From Azoarcus olearius (GTDB taxonomy: Bacteria > Pseudomonadota > Gammaproteobacteria > Burkholderiales > Rhodocyclaceae): a DNA stretch of 64,000 bases. The translations under genes were made by a program, and so were the position numbers. Every line of letters starts with the position of its first letter. Position 1 is the stretch's first letter. Positions 57,008 to 64,000 of this stretch are shown here, in pieces. The DNA lies in assembly GCF_001682385.1 (NCBI RefSeq), contig NZ_CP016210.1, positions 3,968,001 through 4,032,000 on the forward strand, read 5' to 3'. The notes below the pieces were generated by a model. It searched no databases. It saw nothing but the letters and a program-made list of their open reading frames with translations, and was not told where the DNA came from.

Positions 57008-59029
57008 TCAGTTCAATACCGCAACCTTATGCGGAAAACCGACCGAGCCCCCGTCCAGGATCGCGCCCGTGACGAATACATTGAGATAACCGTTGGCGAC
57101 CTCTTGCCGCTGGACGACACGTAGCTGCCCGTCGGCGAATCGCAAGATCGTGCCCGGAACGAACAGGGCCCGCGCTTCCGGCACATCCGCAACGAAGAAG
57201 CCGGGCCAATTGCGTGCAACCCCTTGGATCCAGGTTGCATCGGTAAGGTCGAAAGGAGCGATGCCTTCGTCGCCCTCGGCAGCAGCAACCCATCCCGTCT
57301 GCGCCTGGGTGAGGTAAAGCCCCGCGGGCCCGGCACGTTGCGCGTCGGCACACAGCACGTAGCCCTTGAGCGGGCGATGATCGCCTTCCGCACTCGCACG
57401 CGTCAATACAGCATAGCCGATGACCTCGTTACCATAATTTACGACGGGAGCCAGAACGCTTCGCGGCACCCCTCCGGAATCCACGCCCTCTAAGCGCCCC
57501 TCCAGATGGCATGTAGCCCGACGTCTGTCAGTTTCCACCGGCCGCACTGCTGCTGCAGCCACCGGCAAGCGCTCTACGGTGCCGCCGTTCGTGGCGTGCA
57601 GTGCCGGGAGATGCGACCAGGGGCCCTTGTGATCAATCCGAAGAAATGCAGCGGTCATCGGCAGTGCATCTATCCAGTACCAATCGTCTTTTACCCCCGG
57701 CCACACGGCCTCCCCTTCGGGGTGTGTCGGCGAAAATCCCATCGACAATGCCGCTGCCGCGATGTTGAGGTGGTCGTCGAAGGTGTAGAAACGGGCCAGG
57801 GTGGCGGCCGGCCACACTGCGGCCAGCGTAACCAGGAGGGTGACGCCTAGCTGGGCATGACGCGCAGCGCGAAAACGTGCCAACCCGAGAACCGCGACCC
57901 CCATGAAGATGCTCCAGGCCAGGCTTGCGTATGCTCCGTATCGCGCGCTCGCGAGCACCGAACGATAGGCCTCCCCGGCGTTCCCCGCGCCGACACGCAC
58001 GATCCAGAATGCCGCTGCCGCTGCCCCGGACAAGGCCAGAATCACAGCGATGACCCAAGCCATCGCCACCTCGTCGCTTACGTTCCACTGCCGCCCATTT
58101 CCCAGTGGCAGGCGCGCCGCGAACGCCAGGACAGTGCCATACGCGGCAAAGGCCGTGGTCACGGCGAAAACGATGAATCCCATGGACAGCAGCGTCCGCT
58201 CGCCGACGACGGGCCACAGATAGTTGATCGGGGTAGCAAAGTATGCGCACACCGCCTTCAGGAAGGCTCCCGCCATGTCAGGCGACGACAGCAGGATGCC
58301 GAGCGCCCCCAGTTCGCCGCCGCCTGGCGAGTAGTGCTTCTGAACGGCGATTCCGACGATAAGCGGCAGCGGGGCTCCCAGCGTCATGAGCGGGCGGCGC
58401 GAAAAGACAACGTGCAACAGTGCGAACGCGGCGGCAAAGAGGTGGCCTGCACCGTGAAAGGTTACGGCAAGGCAACTCGCCGCGACGACAGCCAGGTAAG
58501 CCCCCACGCTACCGCGCCGCAACACCTTGATGAGGTACCACAACAACAACAGGTAGGTCAGGCGCGACACACTCATGACGACCTGGAAAGGTTGCATCAG
58601 CGTTTCGTAGTCCGCGAGGTTGGTCACCAGTGCCGCCACAGCCACTGCGCCGCTCAACCGGACGATGAGTGAAATCCCTTCCCGCTCCATCCACGCCAGC
58701 ACGCGTCCTGCGACGAACAAAGCACAACCGGCAGTGGCGAGATAGGACACCACCGTCATTAGCAGCTGCCGCCCATTGGCCCAGTGGTAATCGGCCCAGG
58801 CAACGAGGTAAACAACCGAATGCAGATGCGCACCGTGCGGCAGAAACAGATACTGATCCCAGGTCACCTCGCCTGCCAGCAGACGCATCACGCGATTCCA
58901 TACGGCCCAGCCGTCGACCTTCGGCAGGTCCACCAGGGCATGGGCGGCGACGAATATCTGGGCAACGACGACGACCGCGACAAGCGCATAGGCCAGTCCG
59001 CGCTTGTGGCCCTCAGTCTCCGCCCTCAC
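57008..59029 (-). CDS. Large multi-TM protein, possible GT-C glycosyltransferase
   Basis: This is a 673-residue protein I cannot name. The first 440 or so residues hold about ten hydrophobic helices; the first periplasmic loop has acidic LVDLPKVDGWAVWNRV, as in GT-C enzymes where a catalytic Asp follows helix 1. The last 230 residues are soluble, probably periplasmic. The start is GTG at 59029, which overlaps the GT2 stop (GTGA) and has AAGGAG eight bases upstream. An ATG at 59071 lacks such a site. Downstream of a DPM1-like GT2 and an SMR-type protein, it could transfer a polyprenyl-linked sugar to O-antigen. A polymerase role is also possible. Confidence 0.7.
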   Translation of the reverse strand: MRAETEGHKRGLAYALVAVVVVAQIFVAAHALVDLPKVDGWAVWNRVMRLLAGEVTWDQYLFLPHGAHLHSVVYLVAWADYHWANGRQLLMTVVSYLATAGCALFVAGRVLAWMEREGISLIVRLSGAVAVAALVTNLADYETLMQPFQVVMSVSRLTYLLLLWYLIKVLRRGSVGAYLAVVAASCLAVTFHGAGHLFAAAFALLHVVFSRRPLMTLGAPLPLIVGIAVQKHYSPGGGELGALGILLSSPDMAGAFLKAVCAYFATPINYLWPVVGERTLLSMGFIVFAVTTAFAAYGTVLAFAARLPLGNGRQWNVSDEVAMAWVIAVILALSGAAAAAFWIVRVGAGNAGEAYRSVLASARYGAYASLAWSIFMGVAVLGLARFRAARHAQLGVTLLVTLAAVWPAATLARFYTFDDHLNIAAAALSMGFSPTHPEGEAVWPGVKDDWYWIDALPMTAAFLRIDHKGPWSHLPALHATNGGTVERLPVAAAAVRPVETDRRRATCHLEGRLEGVDSGGVPRSVLAPVVNYGNEVIGYAVLTRASAEGDHRPLKGYVLCADAQRAGPAGLYLTQAQTGWVAAAEGDEGIAPFDLTDATWIQGVARNWPGFFVADVPEARALFVPGTILRFADGQLRVVQRQEVANGYLNVFVTGAILDGGSVGFPHKVAVLN

Positions 59030-59859
59030 CGCGCGTACTCCTTTTCGTCCGGATTGAACTGCCCGAGACATGACGCCACCAGTACTTTGAGCACCGAAAG
59101 GTTGCCACGCACGCTGGAAATCTTGGTCGGGACTTCGCCCTTGGGATAGCGGCGGGCCGACGGCAATTCAACGCAGCGGAAACCGAGACGCGGTGCGCGA
59201 TACGACATGTAGGCCAGCAGTTCGTAGGTAACGAACACGTCCCGGAACGGGGCAACCCTGGGATCGAGAAGCATGGCACGGCTGTACGCCCGGAAACCCT
59301 GTGTCGTATCGGTCCAGCGGAAGCCGGAGGCGAGGCTCAACACGGGCGCGTGGATGAAACGAATGGCCCAGTCGCGCGAGCGCGGCGTGTTCTCGGCGAT
59401 ACCCCCAGCAACGAAACGCGACCCCTGGACAAAGTCGTAGCCTGCCTCCAGCGCCTGGATGAAGCGCGGAATGCCTTCAGGATCATCCTTGTCATTGCCA
59501 TCGATCGTCACGATACCGTCGTAGCCCTCATTGAGCGCAAACGCGTATGCACAACGTAGTTGCGCACCGAGCTTACCCGGCCCGGTCTTCACGAGCAGCC
59601 CCCGAACGCTCTCCGCCTGCAACGCCTCCAGCGCCAGCGATCCATCCTTGCTTCCGCCATCCACGATGATGATGTCGGCCTGCGAGGAGATGGACAGCGC
59701 GGTCATCCGCCGCAGCAGGTTGCGGATGCGCTCGCCTTCGTTGATGACGGGGATAACCACGCAATGGCGGTGGGTACGGCCGAGCCACAGGGGCGTATCG
59801 AAAGCGGGGACCTCCCACTGGGCGGCCTCGGGCAAGTTCGGCTTGAAGGATGATGTCAT
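59026..59859 (-). CDS. DPM1-like family 2 glycosyltransferase
   Basis: This is a 277-residue GT-A enzyme. An N-terminal extension of about 30 residues precedes VVIPVINEGERIRNLLRRM, then IIIVDGGSKDGSL, KLGAQLRCAYAFALNEGYD, and a TIDGNDKDDPEGI metal site. GSRFVAGG and TTQGFRAYSR match dolichol/undecaprenyl-phosphate sugar synthases. Unlike GtrB or ArnC it has no C-terminal membrane helices. It probably loads a sugar on undecaprenyl phosphate. Coupled to the downstream membrane protein by a GTGA overlap. Confidence 0.85.
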   Translation of the reverse strand: MTSSFKPNLPEAAQWEVPAFDTPLWLGRTHRHCVVIPVINEGERIRNLLRRMTALSISSQADIIIVDGGSKDGSLALEALQAESVRGLLVKTGPGKLGAQLRCAYAFALNEGYDGIVTIDGNDKDDPEGIPRFIQALEAGYDFVQGSRFVAGGIAENTPRSRDWAIRFIHAPVLSLASGFRWTDTTQGFRAYSRAMLLDPRVAPFRDVFVTYELLAYMSYRAPRLGFRCVELPSARRYPKGEVPTKISSVRGNLSVLKVLVASCLGQFNPDEKEYAR

Positions 59860-59872
59860 CGTCTTGGAGTAT

Positions 59873-60229
59873 TCAGGCGACGCGAAAAGTGATCAGGAAG
59901 ACGCCGGCAATCACCAGCACCACGCCAGCGGCCGTCGTCCAATGGAATGGCTCGCTGAACAACACGACCGAGAACAGCGCGACGGTGGCGACCGCTCCAG
60001 AGGTGAGCACCGGATGTGCAACATTGAGCGGCAGCCGCGCCAGTGCGGCGGCGTACAGCAGGAACGCCCCCCCATACAGCGCAAGACCAAGCCAGAACGG
60101 CCAGTTGGAAAGCGCCGCCATCGGGTCAGCGAGCGAGGGAAACCGTCGCGGCGGCAGCATGGCGTACTTCACCAGCACGCTGGCGGAAGCGTTGCTGAGG
60201 ATGCCCAGAACGAGAATCAACCACTTCAT
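59873..60229 (-). CDS. Small four-TM SMR/EamA-type protein, possible lipid-linked sugar flippase subunit
   Basis: This is a 118-residue inner-membrane protein with four hydrophobic helices. It has the small-multidrug-resistance/ArnE-ArnF look: SNASASVLVKYAM at the N-terminus, NWPFWLGLALYGGAFLLYAAAL in the middle, and LPLNVAHPVLTSGAV with a final AAGVVLVIAGVFLI. ArnE/ArnF flip an undecaprenyl-phosphate aminosugar. Here it stands alone, between a TIM-barrel gene (ATGA overlap at 60226) and a DPM1-like GT2 gene (13-base gap). Flipping of a lipid-linked sugar is inferred from context, not proved. The alternative is drug or polyamine export. Confidence 0.75.
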   Translation of the reverse strand: MKWLILVLGILSNASASVLVKYAMLPPRRFPSLADPMAALSNWPFWLGLALYGGAFLLYAAALARLPLNVAHPVLTSGAVATVALFSVVLFSEPFHWTTAAGVVLVIAGVFLITFRVA

Positions 60230-61056
60230 GCACCGCGCTCCGCCACCCGATAGGTCGCGTCGGCAGCGAGCAGCGCACGCTCGATCGCAGCGAGGTGCGG
60301 CTCGTCGTTCGCGGCCAGCATCTCGATGCATACCAGCTTGCCCACGCGCCCGTCCGCCAGGACGGCCGCCGCCCGAGCATGGTCGCTCCCGCCGTCACCC
60401 AGGGTTTTCAGCCCGGGCTCGCTCGCATGGATGTGGGCGATCAGGTCGCCATGGGCGGCCGCGACCTCACCGATGTCCTCGCCGTTCATAGCGAGGGCGC
60501 CGATGTCGAGCTGCATCCTTATTGCGGGATGGCCCACCGCCCGCACAACCGCAGCCGTCTCCGCGCTGGTCGTCATGAAATTCGCACCGTAGGCCACCGG
60601 GTTCGGCTCAAGGCATACCACCACGCCGTGGCGCGCAGCAACATCACCCAGACGGGAGAAAAACCCGCATGCCACGTCCAGGACGCGACTGTCGTCGAGC
60701 GCCGCCCGGTCCCGGTTCTTCGGCGAACCAAACACCAGGCACTTCGCCCCCAGGCCGCCGCCGATGCGGCATACGGCGTCGAGGTGCGCAAGCATGGCCC
60801 GCTGCACGTCGGCGGGACCGAAGACGTTGAGACCGGTGGTACCGAACAGCAAGGCCTGCATCCCCGTGATTTCGATGCCCCGACTTGCCCACCACCGGCG
60901 CACCTCCGCCACCTCCGCGTCCGTCGCCTGCTGCGGGCGCGGGAAATACTTGCCCGGCGCAACGTCCACCGCATCCACTGCATGGCGCGCGAGCAGTGCC
61001 GCCACCGCCGCATCCTCCTCCGCATCCCAGGCGATGTTCGAGATCGACAGTCTCAC
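60226..61056 (-). CDS. TIM-barrel sugar phosphate isomerase/epimerase-like protein
   Basis: This is a 276-residue soluble protein of the AP endonuclease 2/xylose isomerase-like barrel. Features are LSISNIAWDAEEDAAVAALL at the start, a CLVFGSPKNRDR segment, VVCLEPNPVAYG with a metal-ligand glutamate, MQLDIGALAMNG with Asp, and HIHASEPGL with histidines. The end has KLVCIEMLAA with a final glutamate. The E/D/H/E set suggests one divalent metal and isomerase or epimerase activity, as in IolE/IolI or hydroxypyruvate isomerase. Substrate unknown. It overlaps its neighbours by four bases at each end. Confidence 0.78.
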   Translation of the reverse strand: MRLSISNIAWDAEEDAAVAALLARHAVDAVDVAPGKYFPRPQQATDAEVAEVRRWWASRGIEITGMQALLFGTTGLNVFGPADVQRAMLAHLDAVCRIGGGLGAKCLVFGSPKNRDRAALDDSRVLDVACGFFSRLGDVAARHGVVVCLEPNPVAYGANFMTTSAETAAVVRAVGHPAIRMQLDIGALAMNGEDIGEVAAAHGDLIAHIHASEPGLKTLGDGGSDHARAAAVLADGRVGKLVCIEMLAANDEPHLAAIERALLAADATYRVAERGA

Positions 61057-61838
61057 TTTGCGGCCTCCACCTTCACCGCGCGCGGCTCGGACTGAGCATA
61101 GGCCCGCACGGCCGACAGCGTTTCACGCACGCTGTACTGATAGGCGCCCTGCCCGCCGAACAGTTCGGCGTGGCGGCTGCGCATGTCATATGTGGCGGCC
61201 GGTGTCGCGAGCGGCTGATCAAAACGCCGCCCGAAGCCACTCGCCGCCACCTCCGCCACACTGACCGGTGCCGCGGTCAGGTGGACCAGCGACAACCCGG
61301 CCTGCAGCGCCCGCTCGACGTCGTACCAGAGATTGACCATCGGGTAGAACTGGAAAACGCCGCGACTATCGATCGCGTGCAGGTTGTTGTCGTTTAGAAG
61401 GTCGAAGATGACGTTCTTGCGCAACCCAGGACCGACGAGGCCGGGCAGGCGCACCACAAGGTGGCGGTCGAAGCGGCGCTCCACGAACTTCTCCAGCAGG
61501 CGACGGTGAAGCCCGTAGGCGTGCAGCCCGCTTTCGTCGACCGGCGACGACTCGTCGACCGCGAGCGGCTGCTTGAACACGTCGACCGTGCTGATCAGCA
61601 CGAAGGTCTTGCACTCGACCCGGTCGAGATGACCGATGAGGCCGTTGATCTTCGCCAGGTCCGACTCCGGGTCACGGTTCGCGATCCATTTCTGTGCCGG
61701 CGCGCCGGCGCACACCACCAGATCGAAACGACGACCTTCGATTTCGTGAATGTCGGTGGAGCGAAATAGCGCGTCGAAGGCGGTCTGGCGGAGCAGCGTG
61801 CTGCCGACGAATCCGGTGTAGCCAATCAATGCTTTCAT
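61053..61838 (-). CDS. NAD(P)-binding SDR epimerase-like protein, atypical
   Basis: This is a 261-residue short SDR-fold protein. The NAD loop is reduced to LIGYTGFVGSTLLRQ, and FDLVVCAGAPAQKWIANR replaces the usual LAA segment. VLISTVDVF and HAYGLHRRLLEKF give a Ser/Thr and a YxxxR rather than YxxxK active-site pattern (tyrosine then H-R-R). RLPGLVGPGLRKNVIFDLL is a further mark. The missing lysine makes standard epimerase chemistry doubtful. It is coupled on both sides (ATGA at 61053 and 61835). I infer a role in making the unusual sugar of this module. Confidence 0.74.
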   Translation of the reverse strand: MKALIGYTGFVGSTLLRQTAFDALFRSTDIHEIEGRRFDLVVCAGAPAQKWIANRDPESDLAKINGLIGHLDRVECKTFVLISTVDVFKQPLAVDESSPVDESGLHAYGLHRRLLEKFVERRFDRHLVVRLPGLVGPGLRKNVIFDLLNDNNLHAIDSRGVFQFYPMVNLWYDVERALQAGLSLVHLTAAPVSVAEVAASGFGRRFDQPLATPAATYDMRSRHAELFGGQGAYQYSVRETLSAVRAYAQSEPRAVKVEAAK

Positions 61839-62995
61839 GTCGAAGACTCCTCCGTGCCCGATGACGGAAGCAGGGTTTCGCTCTCGAGCTTCTCGAGAAC
61901 GTCGTAGATGTTGTCGATCTTCCCGCCGAGGATGGAATAACAGCCCGGCAGCTCCGCATGGCGCTCGAACAGAATGGGGCGGCCGTCGTCGCCCTCGTTC
62001 TTCTGCAGCACCGTCTTCACCTCGAACAGCGAATCGACGTGGCGCGCCTGCTCAACCAACGGCAGGTATCGCGCCACGTCGCGCACCATCCTGTCCACCC
62101 GGGTGGGGCGTCCGTAGTCGTGCATACGCTGATACGGGTCCACCCCGACGGCGTCCTCCCACTGGAGGTGTGGCGTGTAGCGCACGTGGGACAGCGTGTG
62201 CAACGCCCGCGCCGGAAACGGCATCAGGGAAAAGAAGGGCCCGTCCATCACGGTGACGCCCAGTTCCTTGAAAGGGGCGGGCACCTCCACCAGCGCCATC
62301 TCGGTCAACTCATGCTTGAGCCCGGTCCTTGTCGTACCGAAACGGCCACCGAGTTGGTTGAGTCCGCTGTAGGTGCAGTTGAAGACATGGGCGGCGCGAA
62401 CCGGGTACTCACCTCGCTCGGCGGCACCCAGGGTCACGACGAGCCCGCCTTCCGTTGCCGGCACCACCGCAATGGCACGGGTTGCGAGCCGGACCTCGAC
62501 ACCGCTCTCCCGCAGTTCGCTCTCCGCCCAGGTGCGCAAGACGGTAGCGTCGAACGCATGCTCCTCGACGACGTAGACGTTCTCGATGAAGTGGGGGTCG
62601 AAGTAGCGTGCCAGGCTGACAGGGGCTGGTTCGATGAAGGCCCCGATGTCACGGCAAAAACGTTCGAACTGGCGGCTCGTCACCTTGGAATTGCGGCGCG
62701 CAATCGCGTACAGCTTGACGAAGTCCTTCTTAACCGCCGCCGGCCAGTCACGCACGAAACGCGGTAGATTCACGCGGCTGCGATAGGCGGTCGTGAAGCT
62801 CCGCGGATAGTGATACCCGTTGTGGACTCGGGCCTGGTTGTGATACGACGCGCGCACCAGCAATTCCCGCTCGCGCTCGACGAGCAGAACACGGCCGAAA
62901 CGACGCTGCTGGGCGAGGTAGATGGCAATCGCCGAGCCGTAAAATCCGCCCCCGACGACAATTGCGTCGAACATGGGCATCCCGGCAGCCGTCAC
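61835..62995 (-). CDS. FAD-dependent oxidoreductase (DAO type) in glycan cluster
   Basis: This is a 386-residue flavoprotein. The Rossmann FAD loop is DAIVVGGGFYGSAIAIYLA, followed by VLLVERE, an ASYHNQARVHNGYHYPRS block that probably sits near the flavin, and the late YSILGGKIDNIYDVLEKL segment with the GGK turn. The architecture is that of D-amino-acid oxidase/glycerol-3-phosphate-dehydrogenase-like enzymes. Relatives in surface-polysaccharide loci have no settled substrate as far as I know. The start is GTG at 62995 (GTGA overlap) or ATG at 62980. It probably oxidises a sugar or polyol precursor. Confidence 0.8.
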   Translation of the reverse strand: MTAAGMPMFDAIVVGGGFYGSAIAIYLAQQRRFGRVLLVERERELLVRASYHNQARVHNGYHYPRSFTTAYRSRVNLPRFVRDWPAAVKKDFVKLYAIARRNSKVTSRQFERFCRDIGAFIEPAPVSLARYFDPHFIENVYVVEEHAFDATVLRTWAESELRESGVEVRLATRAIAVVPATEGGLVVTLGAAERGEYPVRAAHVFNCTYSGLNQLGGRFGTTRTGLKHELTEMALVEVPAPFKELGVTVMDGPFFSLMPFPARALHTLSHVRYTPHLQWEDAVGVDPYQRMHDYGRPTRVDRMVRDVARYLPLVEQARHVDSLFEVKTVLQKNEGDDGRPILFERHAELPGCYSILGGKIDNIYDVLEKLESETLLPSSGTEESST

Positions 62996-64000
62996 GCGAC
63001 GCGTTCCACGCCAGCCAAGACCGACACTGCGCGAACCGACGATACATCCTCGATATTCAGCTTTTCGCGCCGCGTTAGCCGCGCGCTGGTGAATTCCTGC
63101 GCGACATGGTAGGGCGGGCCCTCGGTCGACAGACTCGCCATGTGCAGGATGTACTCGCCCAGCACCAGCAGGACCAGCGAGATCAGGAAGAACATCCCCG
63201 ATTGCTGCAGCGACAGGCTCGCCCAGCCCGGGGCGACGTCCGGACTCAGCAGCGCGACCGCTAGCACATAGATGGAATAGAGCACATTGGCGACCGCACC
63301 GAAGAGCGACAACGCGGTGACCAGACGCATGGGCGCGCGAGTGGTCGACACGAGCAGCCGTGTGCCACGGCCGATGCTTTCGCCAAGACGTTTGGTGGCG
63401 CGCGCGCGCGGCGGTGCGCTGTATTCCAGATTAACGCGGGCAAACCCACCTGTGGCGGGCAGATGGCGGTAGGTGATCGACGGCTGCGGGTGTTGCAGGA
63501 TGAAGTTGATGACCCGTTTGCTCAGCAATCGGTACTGCGGCGCCTCTTTGGCAAGGTGAATGCCGTTGAAGAACTTGTAGAGGCGGTTGAACGCCAAGTA
63601 CGCAAGATTGTATGCCAGCGACTGCGGCGGCCTTTGCTGGTTAGTCGCGAAGACGACATCGGCTCCCGAAACCGCCTTGTCGAGCATCTGCGGCAGAAAG
63701 GCGATGTCATCGGCAAGAGGGTCGATCACCGCGACGAAATCACCGAGTGCATTTTCCAGCCCCACCCATGAGGCCGTATCCGTATCGACCTCCTTGGTCA
63801 GGGCATAAACCTGCAGGTTGGGCAGCCCATCCTCGCCGGTCAGGCGCTTCAGCCTCGTCACGCTGTCATCAGAGGATGCGTTATCGACCACGACGATTTC
63901 GTAATCGCTCACGAGCGGCGAAACGCTGCCTACCGCAGACGCCAGGATGTCTTCAAGCCGCGCGGACTCGTTACGCACAACAAGCACGACCGACAGGAAC
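62992..64000 (-). CDS. GtrB/ArnC-like membrane glycosyltransferase family 2, 5' end cut by window edge
   Basis: The frame runs off the right edge, so the first residues are missing; the visible part, about 336 residues, begins FLSVVLVVRNESARLED. The GT2 domain has EIVVVDNASSDDS, VAVIDPLADDI in place of the usual DxD, and AYNLAYLAFNRLYKFFNGIHL. Two C-terminal helices (about residues 225-250 and 265-290) anchor it as in GtrB and ArnC, which make undecaprenyl-phosphate sugars. The last 40 residues are cytoplasmic. Coupled to the FAD oxidoreductase gene by a GTGA overlap. The substrate is unknown. Confidence 0.84.
   Translation of the reverse strand, partial: FLSVVLVVRNESARLEDILASAVGSVSPLVSDYEIVVVDNASSDDSVTRLKRLTGEDGLPNLQVYALTKEVDTDTASWVGLENALGDFVAVIDPLADDIAFLPQMLDKAVSGADVVFATNQQRPPQSLAYNLAYLAFNRLYKFFNGIHLAKEAPQYRLLSKRVINFILQHPQPSITYRHLPATGGFARVNLEYSAPPRARATKRLGESIGRGTRLLVSTTRAPMRLVTALSLFGAVANVLYSIYVLAVALLSPDVAPGWASLSLQQSGMFFLISLVLLVLGEYILHMASLSTEGPPYHVAQEFTSARLTRREKLNIEDVSSVRAVSVLAGVERVA

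Follow-up and report, generated by a model that had tools for sequence, protein, structure and literature searches.

What might seven tightly packed genes achieve together when they combine two glycosyltransferases, three enzymes that look soluble and two membrane proteins? This question is raised by one end of a 64,000-nucleotide stretch of Azoarcus olearius DNA (contig NZ_CP016210.1), hereafter called the window, where seven open reading frames (ORFs), all on the minus strand, span positions 57008-64017. In reading order they encode a GtrB-like membrane glycosyltransferase of family GT2 (GT2A), a flavin adenine dinucleotide oxidoreductase (FAD), an atypical short-chain dehydrogenase (SDR), a TIM-barrel protein (TIM), a small protein with four transmembrane (TM) segments (SMR), a second GT2 (GT2B) and a 687-aa multi-TM protein (P0006). 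The GT2A/FAD, FAD/SDR, SDR/TIM and TIM/SMR junctions are 4-base overlaps, SMR and GT2B are separated by 13 bases, and GT2B overlaps the last ORF by 46 bases; the seven genes therefore look like one operon. A preliminary description of this locus had likewise reported seven leftward genes with overlaps or tiny gaps, to which we add that GT2A starts at the ATG at 64017, 17 bases past the window edge. The G+C content of the cassette is 0.61-0.69, against 0.684 for the whole window. We tentatively propose, giving it slightly less than an even chance, that this self-contained cassette builds a remodelled sugar while it is carried by undecaprenyl phosphate (Und-P) and then transfers this sugar to a cell-surface glycan, which at this locus is probably an O-antigen exported by an ATP-binding cassette (ABC) transporter.

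Distribution of the gene set across genomes

Genome contigs were scanned with an alignment of the FAD protein, and the best 80 of at least 480 confirmed FAD relatives were taken as a set of loci (L numbers), so that divergent members are under-represented. As many as 69 of the 80 loci held GT2A, FAD, SDR, TIM and GT2B, and 64 of these also held SMR. The order of the window was kept in 62 of the 69 with SMR and in five without it; in L064 the two halves of the cassette were exchanged, and L073 was duplicated. The latter locus, from Pseudomonas sp. T1-3-2 (L073:4483-15408), carries two SDR-TIM-SMR-GT2B sets around a single GT2A-FAD pair, and it was omitted from the SDR, TIM and GT2B motif counts given below. 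The other 11 loci comprised six cut by contig ends (L020, L056, L065, L072, L077 and L078), four in which an aldo/keto reductase (AKR) replaced SDR and TIM, and L055, which falls outside the pattern in that SDR and TIM were present and SMR and GT2B were not found.

The preliminary description had named a lack of co-occurrence in other genomes as one result that would refute it; the genes were found together in distant genomes, and their order was mostly kept. In a phylum sample of 398 genomes (G numbers) that included A. olearius itself, FAD occurred in seven, SDR in seven and both in six; among the 397 others the counts were six, six and five (Fisher P 4.5e-10). Of these five, G615 and G635 carried the whole set and G604 the trio of FAD, SDR and TIM only; outside the pattern, the set in G420 was rearranged with no flippase found, and the cassette genes of G531 were split over two contigs. 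A class sample gave an SDR match in three of 274 genomes, namely A. olearius, G020 and G237, the last of these with the whole set. Three more genomes lie against or outside the pattern: G020 had a weak SDR relative and no cassette, G398, whose genome is 77 % complete, had SDR without FAD, and G651 had a FAD relative without SDR. In G651 (L109:9143-10976) the FAD relative is directly followed by a Gfo/Idh-like gene, which constitutes another oxidase-dehydrogenase pairing.

Plasmids gave a similar result, FAD and SDR being found in an identical set of 12 records, 10 of which were examined in detail (H17 and H24 were left out). In the 10.8-kb Psychrobacter plasmid pA22P4 the cassette (L009:2336-8624) is the sole listed cargo, and the other listed genes serve only mobilisation (mobC, relaxase) and replication. 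The Azospirillum and Mesorhizobium records lie outside the pattern, with no flippase listed in the cassette. In Mesorhizobium huakuii p_3 (L011:5989-11148), FAD and SDR stand together and TIM lies on the opposite strand between two IS5 copies, which looks like a disturbed cassette. A tblastn search of viral contigs found no SDR relative, and phages yielded one partial FAD match of 31 % identity.

O-antigen loci are gene mosaics, and a congener has such a locus without the cassette genes (see below), so the seven genes might be unrelated neighbours brought together by chance. Against this, the genes keep their order and occur together across distant groups and are carried as plasmid cargo; in addition, the divergences of the cassette genes were correlated (r 0.64-0.78 over 66 loci, against at most 0.26 in shuffles, the species tree not being controlled). 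We rejected a chance mosaic on the co-occurrence and leave it only the slimmest probability. The gene set is conserved, and its six or seven genes move together among widely differing bacteria.

The glycosyltransferase pair and the modifying enzymes

Both glycosyltransferases matched PF00535 of Pfam, GT2B with a score of 46.7. GT2A (62992-64000 within the window, minus strand; 341 aa), which has two C-terminal TM segments, aligned nearly full length with GtrB (5eke; E 1.2e-23, profile positions 10-312 of 347). GT2B (59026-59859, minus strand), a DPM1-like protein without TM segments, aligned with DPM synthase (5mlz; E 3.8e-13, positions 28-164 of 271) over the catalytic domain. The DxD motif is altered in both: the canonical pattern tested fitted none of 77 GT2A relatives, and DGN[DN]K replaces it in all 68 GT2Bs. 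Because GT2A and GT2B share a single reading frame in Psychrobacter (L009:5410-7188), we suggest that the two act together, putatively as an Und-P loader. Furthermore, GT2A adjoins FAD in all 79 loci with a readable GT2A, including those of the AKR form.

The AKR form, found in four of the 80 loci (L043, L044, L046 and L049), consists of GT2A and FAD together with another DPM-like GT2, which has a DLD motif, the aldo/keto reductase, whose catalytic Asp-Tyr-Lys-His tetrad is kept, and a GtrA protein. From this composition, GT2A-FAD represents one half of the cassette and SDR-TIM-SMR-GT2B the other.

The FAD protein (P0001; 61835-62995, minus strand) passed the cut-off of the DAO domain PF01266 (56.7 versus 27.9 bits), and its model (predicted local distance difference test, pLDDT, 90) likewise belongs to the GlpD/glycine-oxidase fold. 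GlpD was the top match by Z (30.6); since other oxidases scored close behind, we only infer that the enzyme oxidises an alcohol, putatively converting a ring hydroxyl to a ketone. The SDR (61053-61838, minus strand), a proposed ketone reductase, scored 16.6 against PF01370, below the cut-off of 20.9, and its weak relative in the PDB was dTDP-4-dehydrorhamnose reductase (8g22, E 0.0033). It retains the Rossmann glycines (67 of 70 sequences by the pattern used), the Ser and the Tyr, and has Arg at the position of the catalytic Lys: YGxxR was found in all 70 sequences instead of the YxxxK of classical and extended SDRs, and the pattern YGxxK also fits two of the 70.

The TIM protein (60226-61056, minus strand) matched AP_endonuc_2 (PF01261) with 68.4 bits against a cut-off of 31.1. 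Its residues E150, D184, H210 and E245, which we take to be the full set of metal ligands, are invariant in 25 and in nine sequences, and four TIM patterns fit 68, 47, 66 and 67 of 70; the first three are metal ligands by alignment with 3vnk. With this E-D-H-E site and domain, the protein belongs with the xylose-isomerase-like ketose epimerases. Its closest solved relatives were ketose 3-epimerases (E 6e-10), which outscored the 3-keto-D-glucoside 4-epimerase 6wn6 (E 5.5e-5), and YcjR was therefore rejected as the closest relative. The enzyme fits proton transfer beside a ketone. It could instead act as an eliminase or isomerase that removes a group or forms a ketose, leaving a deoxy, unsaturated or ketose sugar as the final residue. 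The Mn2+ TIM-barrel enzymes AtOGE and PuCGE, each with an adjacent oxidoreductase, beta-eliminate 3-keto-glucosides according to a published account (PMC10628242), and hydroxypyruvate isomerase was among the NCBIfam matches of TIM. The solved relatives named above are epimerases, however, the AKR form has no TIM gene and still has an oxidase and a reductase, and elimination at C1 would destroy a lipid-linked donor; we consider such a role quite improbable.

An SDR or AKR reductase accompanied the oxidase in every readable locus (74 of the 80). The pairing of an oxidase with a reductase in one cassette, in two versions with unrelated reductases, points to oxidation and then reduction, by which centres would be inverted. 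The preliminary description had suggested that the residue is perhaps a keto-sugar or cyclitol; with a reductase always beside the oxidase, an epimerised sugar seems the likelier final residue.

These features are consistent with the following route. The GT2A/GT2B pair would use a nucleotide donor to load Und-P with a common sugar, as the homologies to GtrB and DPM synthase suggest, and the FAD enzyme would oxidise one ring hydroxyl to a ketone. TIM would then invert the carbon adjoining the ketone, in keeping with its ketose 3-epimerase and 3-keto-glucoside 4-epimerase relatives, and SDR would reduce the ketone to give a doubly inverted sugar; in the AKR form, the aldo/keto reductase in place of SDR and TIM would give a singly inverted one. 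Glucose could, for example, become gulose, or allose in the AKR form. SMR, or elsewhere GtrA, would flip the lipid, and a locus-specific GT-C-like protein would attach the sugar. The three-step redox epimerisation catalysed by YcjS, YcjR and YcjQ is a precedent for the chemistry of the trio, and redox epimerisation of a polyprenyl-phosphate sugar has precedents in DprE1/DprE2 and in ORF13 of Citrobacter O2, as described in PMC11127046.

The order of loading and modification was envisaged differently in the preliminary description, where the trio would make the unusual sugar in nucleotide-linked or free form, the GT2 pair would place it, already finished, on Und-P, and the rest would be an ordinary Gtr-like donor cassette. 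Consistent with this, FAD, SDR and TIM look soluble, most relatives having no TM segment in a hydrophobicity scan, and the weak SDR relative 8g22 acts on a dTDP-sugar. The locus L107:8994-11718 bears on it as well: FAD, SDR and TIM form a three-gene unit there without glycosyltransferases, between sigma-factor/GNAT and deoC-like plus sugar ABC transporter regions. This locus shows the trio as a unit, here perhaps a cousin with a catabolic or other role, and it weakens our claim that the trio needs a lipid-linked substrate. An apparent fusion of SDR and TIM in L107 proved to be an artefact, the two genes occupying different frames. On the other side, the unbroken adjacency of GT2A and FAD, AKR form included, suggests coupling of the oxidase to the loader, Pfam detected no nucleotidyltransferase among the cassette proteins, and the oxidase-reductase pairs known beside a flippase act on lipid-linked sugars, as far as PMC11127046 describes them. 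Modification before loading is the less likely order in our judgement, and we tentatively favour remodelling on the lipid carrier. Its most general form, a widespread, horizontally moving cassette whose DAO flavoenzyme, metal-dependent TIM epimerase and SDR would convert a hexose bound to Und-P, with an AKR version for single inversion and two GT2s, both with a changed metal motif, as joint loader, we put forward as a doubtful extension.

Membrane proteins, surroundings and acceptor

The four-TM protein SMR (59873-60229, minus strand), the proposed flippase for the lipid-linked sugar, matched Multi_Drug_Res (PF00893; 29.3 versus a cut-off of 23.7), and its best NCBIfam match was ArnF (E 6.5e-7), under the cut-off of that family. 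A GtrA gene, with no SMR listed, was found in seven of the 10 plasmid records (Cereibacter twice, Sagittula, Sphingomonas, Ruegeria, Roseobacter and Rhodobacter). This exchange of SMR and GtrA, together with the similarity of GT2A to GtrB and of the GT2B domain to DPM synthase, supports the transferase-flippase-transferase logic proposed earlier.

P0006 (57008-59071, minus strand), with multiple TM segments and a soluble C-terminal domain, is proposed as the transferase from its position and topology. No Pfam family was found for it, and thus the label GT-C-like is not supported by its sequence. A sequence search of the PDB gave nothing beyond a match to a pyocin chain at chance level (E 0.086), an hhalign comparison with the membrane protein of one other cassette gave 0.5 % probability, and an AlphaFold2 model from three sequences (pLDDT 43) was too poor for use. 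Of the loci covered by iterative hidden Markov model searches, only L058 and L022 yielded relatives over the full length, and Pfam matched none of 10 comparable membrane ORFs taken from 68. A PMT_2 domain was seen only in Cereibacter (L012), where it shares a single reading frame with GT2B. A large multi-TM ORF nevertheless lay within 5 kb on the cassette strand in 63 of the 80 loci and on the opposite strand in 14, and within 400 bases of a cassette gene in 59 of the 80. The large membrane protein is the most variable part of the cassette. Two of the family labels given earlier are thus less secure than they were put: that of SDR is sub-threshold in Pfam, and GT-C lacks a family match.

Residues ~605-687 of P0006 (57011-57259) form an ~80-residue C-terminal stretch common to otherwise different membrane proteins near the cassettes in L047, L055, L070 and L075, and also present inside another ORF in L045; it is perhaps a glycan-binding domain exchanged between transferases. 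Separately, eight of 104 membrane ORFs (L017:14058-15668 and seven similar ones) carry an H-x-G-E ... I/V-H-G-x-x-D-x-I motif near the N terminus and may form a second family of transferases that work with the cassette.

On one side of the cassette, gmd comes 68 bases after P0006 and is accompanied on the same strand by a GDP-fucose-synthase-like gene, a GT2, a GT4, an SDR and a WecA-like gene. The other side holds, again on the same strand, a double methyltransferase, Wzt with a C-terminal domain, Wzm, a large glycosyltransferase and a second fcl-like gene, beyond which lies a polA-like gene, so named from its sequence. The surroundings are an ABC-type O-antigen locus. In a sample of 61 relatives, the FAD gene occurred in three of the four genomes of the genus, A. 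olearius included. In the fourth, G658, a similar polA...WecA-like locus lies between the same two flanking genes and holds gmd, GT4, SDR and WecA-like genes, and no match to a cassette gene was found in it; therefore, the cassette is an optional part of a variable locus.

The acceptor in the window's host is likely the O-antigen, as the preliminary description had supposed; elsewhere it may differ, cassettes also occurring outside O-antigen loci and near exosortase genes. The core of the Azoarcus indigens cassette is 81-85 % identical and lies outside an O-antigen locus, with a different membrane protein that gave no match to P0006. Two Rhodobacterales, Ruegeria and Rhodobacter CZR27, have exosortase genes, xrtD and xrtE, near the cassette (L015:12576-14228 and L120:3105-4715); because of this closeness, the acceptor there may be a protein or another glycan. 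Both cases agree with an acceptor that varies by host, so that the O-antigen would be no general target and protein glycosylation or exopolysaccharide could be served. Against it, the window's cassette is embedded in an O-antigen locus of the ABC type, together with Wzm, Wzt, gmd, fcl-like and WecA-like genes, and the AKR-form locus L044 adjoins a similar row of gmd, fcl-like, glycosyltransferase and WecA-like genes. As a full account, host-dependent acceptors appear decidedly improbable.

Comparison with known systems

The sugars of surface polysaccharides determine recognition by phages, antibodies and hosts, and few known routes remodel a sugar on its lipid carrier. If the proposed remodelling on Und-P is correct, the cassette, which is compact, occurs in widely separated groups and allows its flippase, reductase and transferase to be exchanged, would provide a general route, and a testable one, by which rare hexoses reach surface glycans without new nucleotide-sugar pathways; its genes would also serve as markers that predict such residues from genomes. 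Our searches of open-licence papers turned up no account of these genes as a set, and one may exist elsewhere.

Like ArnC/ArnE/ArnF/ArnT, the cassette would join a GT2 loader, an SMR-type flippase and a membrane transferase, but it lacks the Arn sugar enzymes, and the NCBIfam scores were far below the cut-offs (ArnF 29.8 of 99, ArnE 25.3 of 92 and ArnC 54.0 of 529 bits). YcjS/YcjR/YcjQ of Escherichia coli likewise comprise a TIM-barrel epimerase of 3-keto-glucosides and a pair of redox enzymes; they belong, however, to a sugar-uptake operon that acts on soluble glycosides and has no glycosyltransferase or flippase, and the TIM similarity is distant (6wn6, as above). In the DprE1/DprE2 arabinofuranose pathway with Rv3789, an FAD oxidase and an SDR reductase also stand beside a small flippase and membrane transferases. 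DprE1 is a FAD_binding_4-type flavoprotein, whereas the cassette FAD has the DAO/GlpD fold and no Pfam match of that type, and membership in DprE was ruled out by this domain and fold; moreover, the cassette has the extra TIM enzyme and no UbiA-type phosphoribose synthase.

The three-component pentofuranose systems of Citrobacter youngae O1/O2 resemble the cassette, as we propose it to work, in using an Und-P donor, a flippase, a GT-C protein and an epimerase that alters the side-chain sugar. They have, according to PMC11127046, a PPPRS loader, a MATE flippase and a single SDR epimerase, in place of GT2 loaders, SMR or GtrA and the FAD-TIM-SDR trio; a Pfam scan of our seven proteins detected the GT2s and SMR and no other loader or flippase family. 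Kelly et al. (2024; PMC11127046), after naming DprE1/E2, state that they are unaware of other epimerases in O-antigen side-chain systems. Finally, the Gtr systems share a GtrB-like GT2 loader, a small flippase with four TM segments (in several relatives, GtrA itself), a variable membrane transferase and movement as a unit. In contrast to their composition as set out in PMC11127046, the cassette has two GT2s with an altered DxD, SMR instead of GtrA in the window, and three constant sugar-modifying enzymes. Taken together, the cassette works like a Gtr or an arabinofuranose-donor system, yet it departs from the defining features of each.

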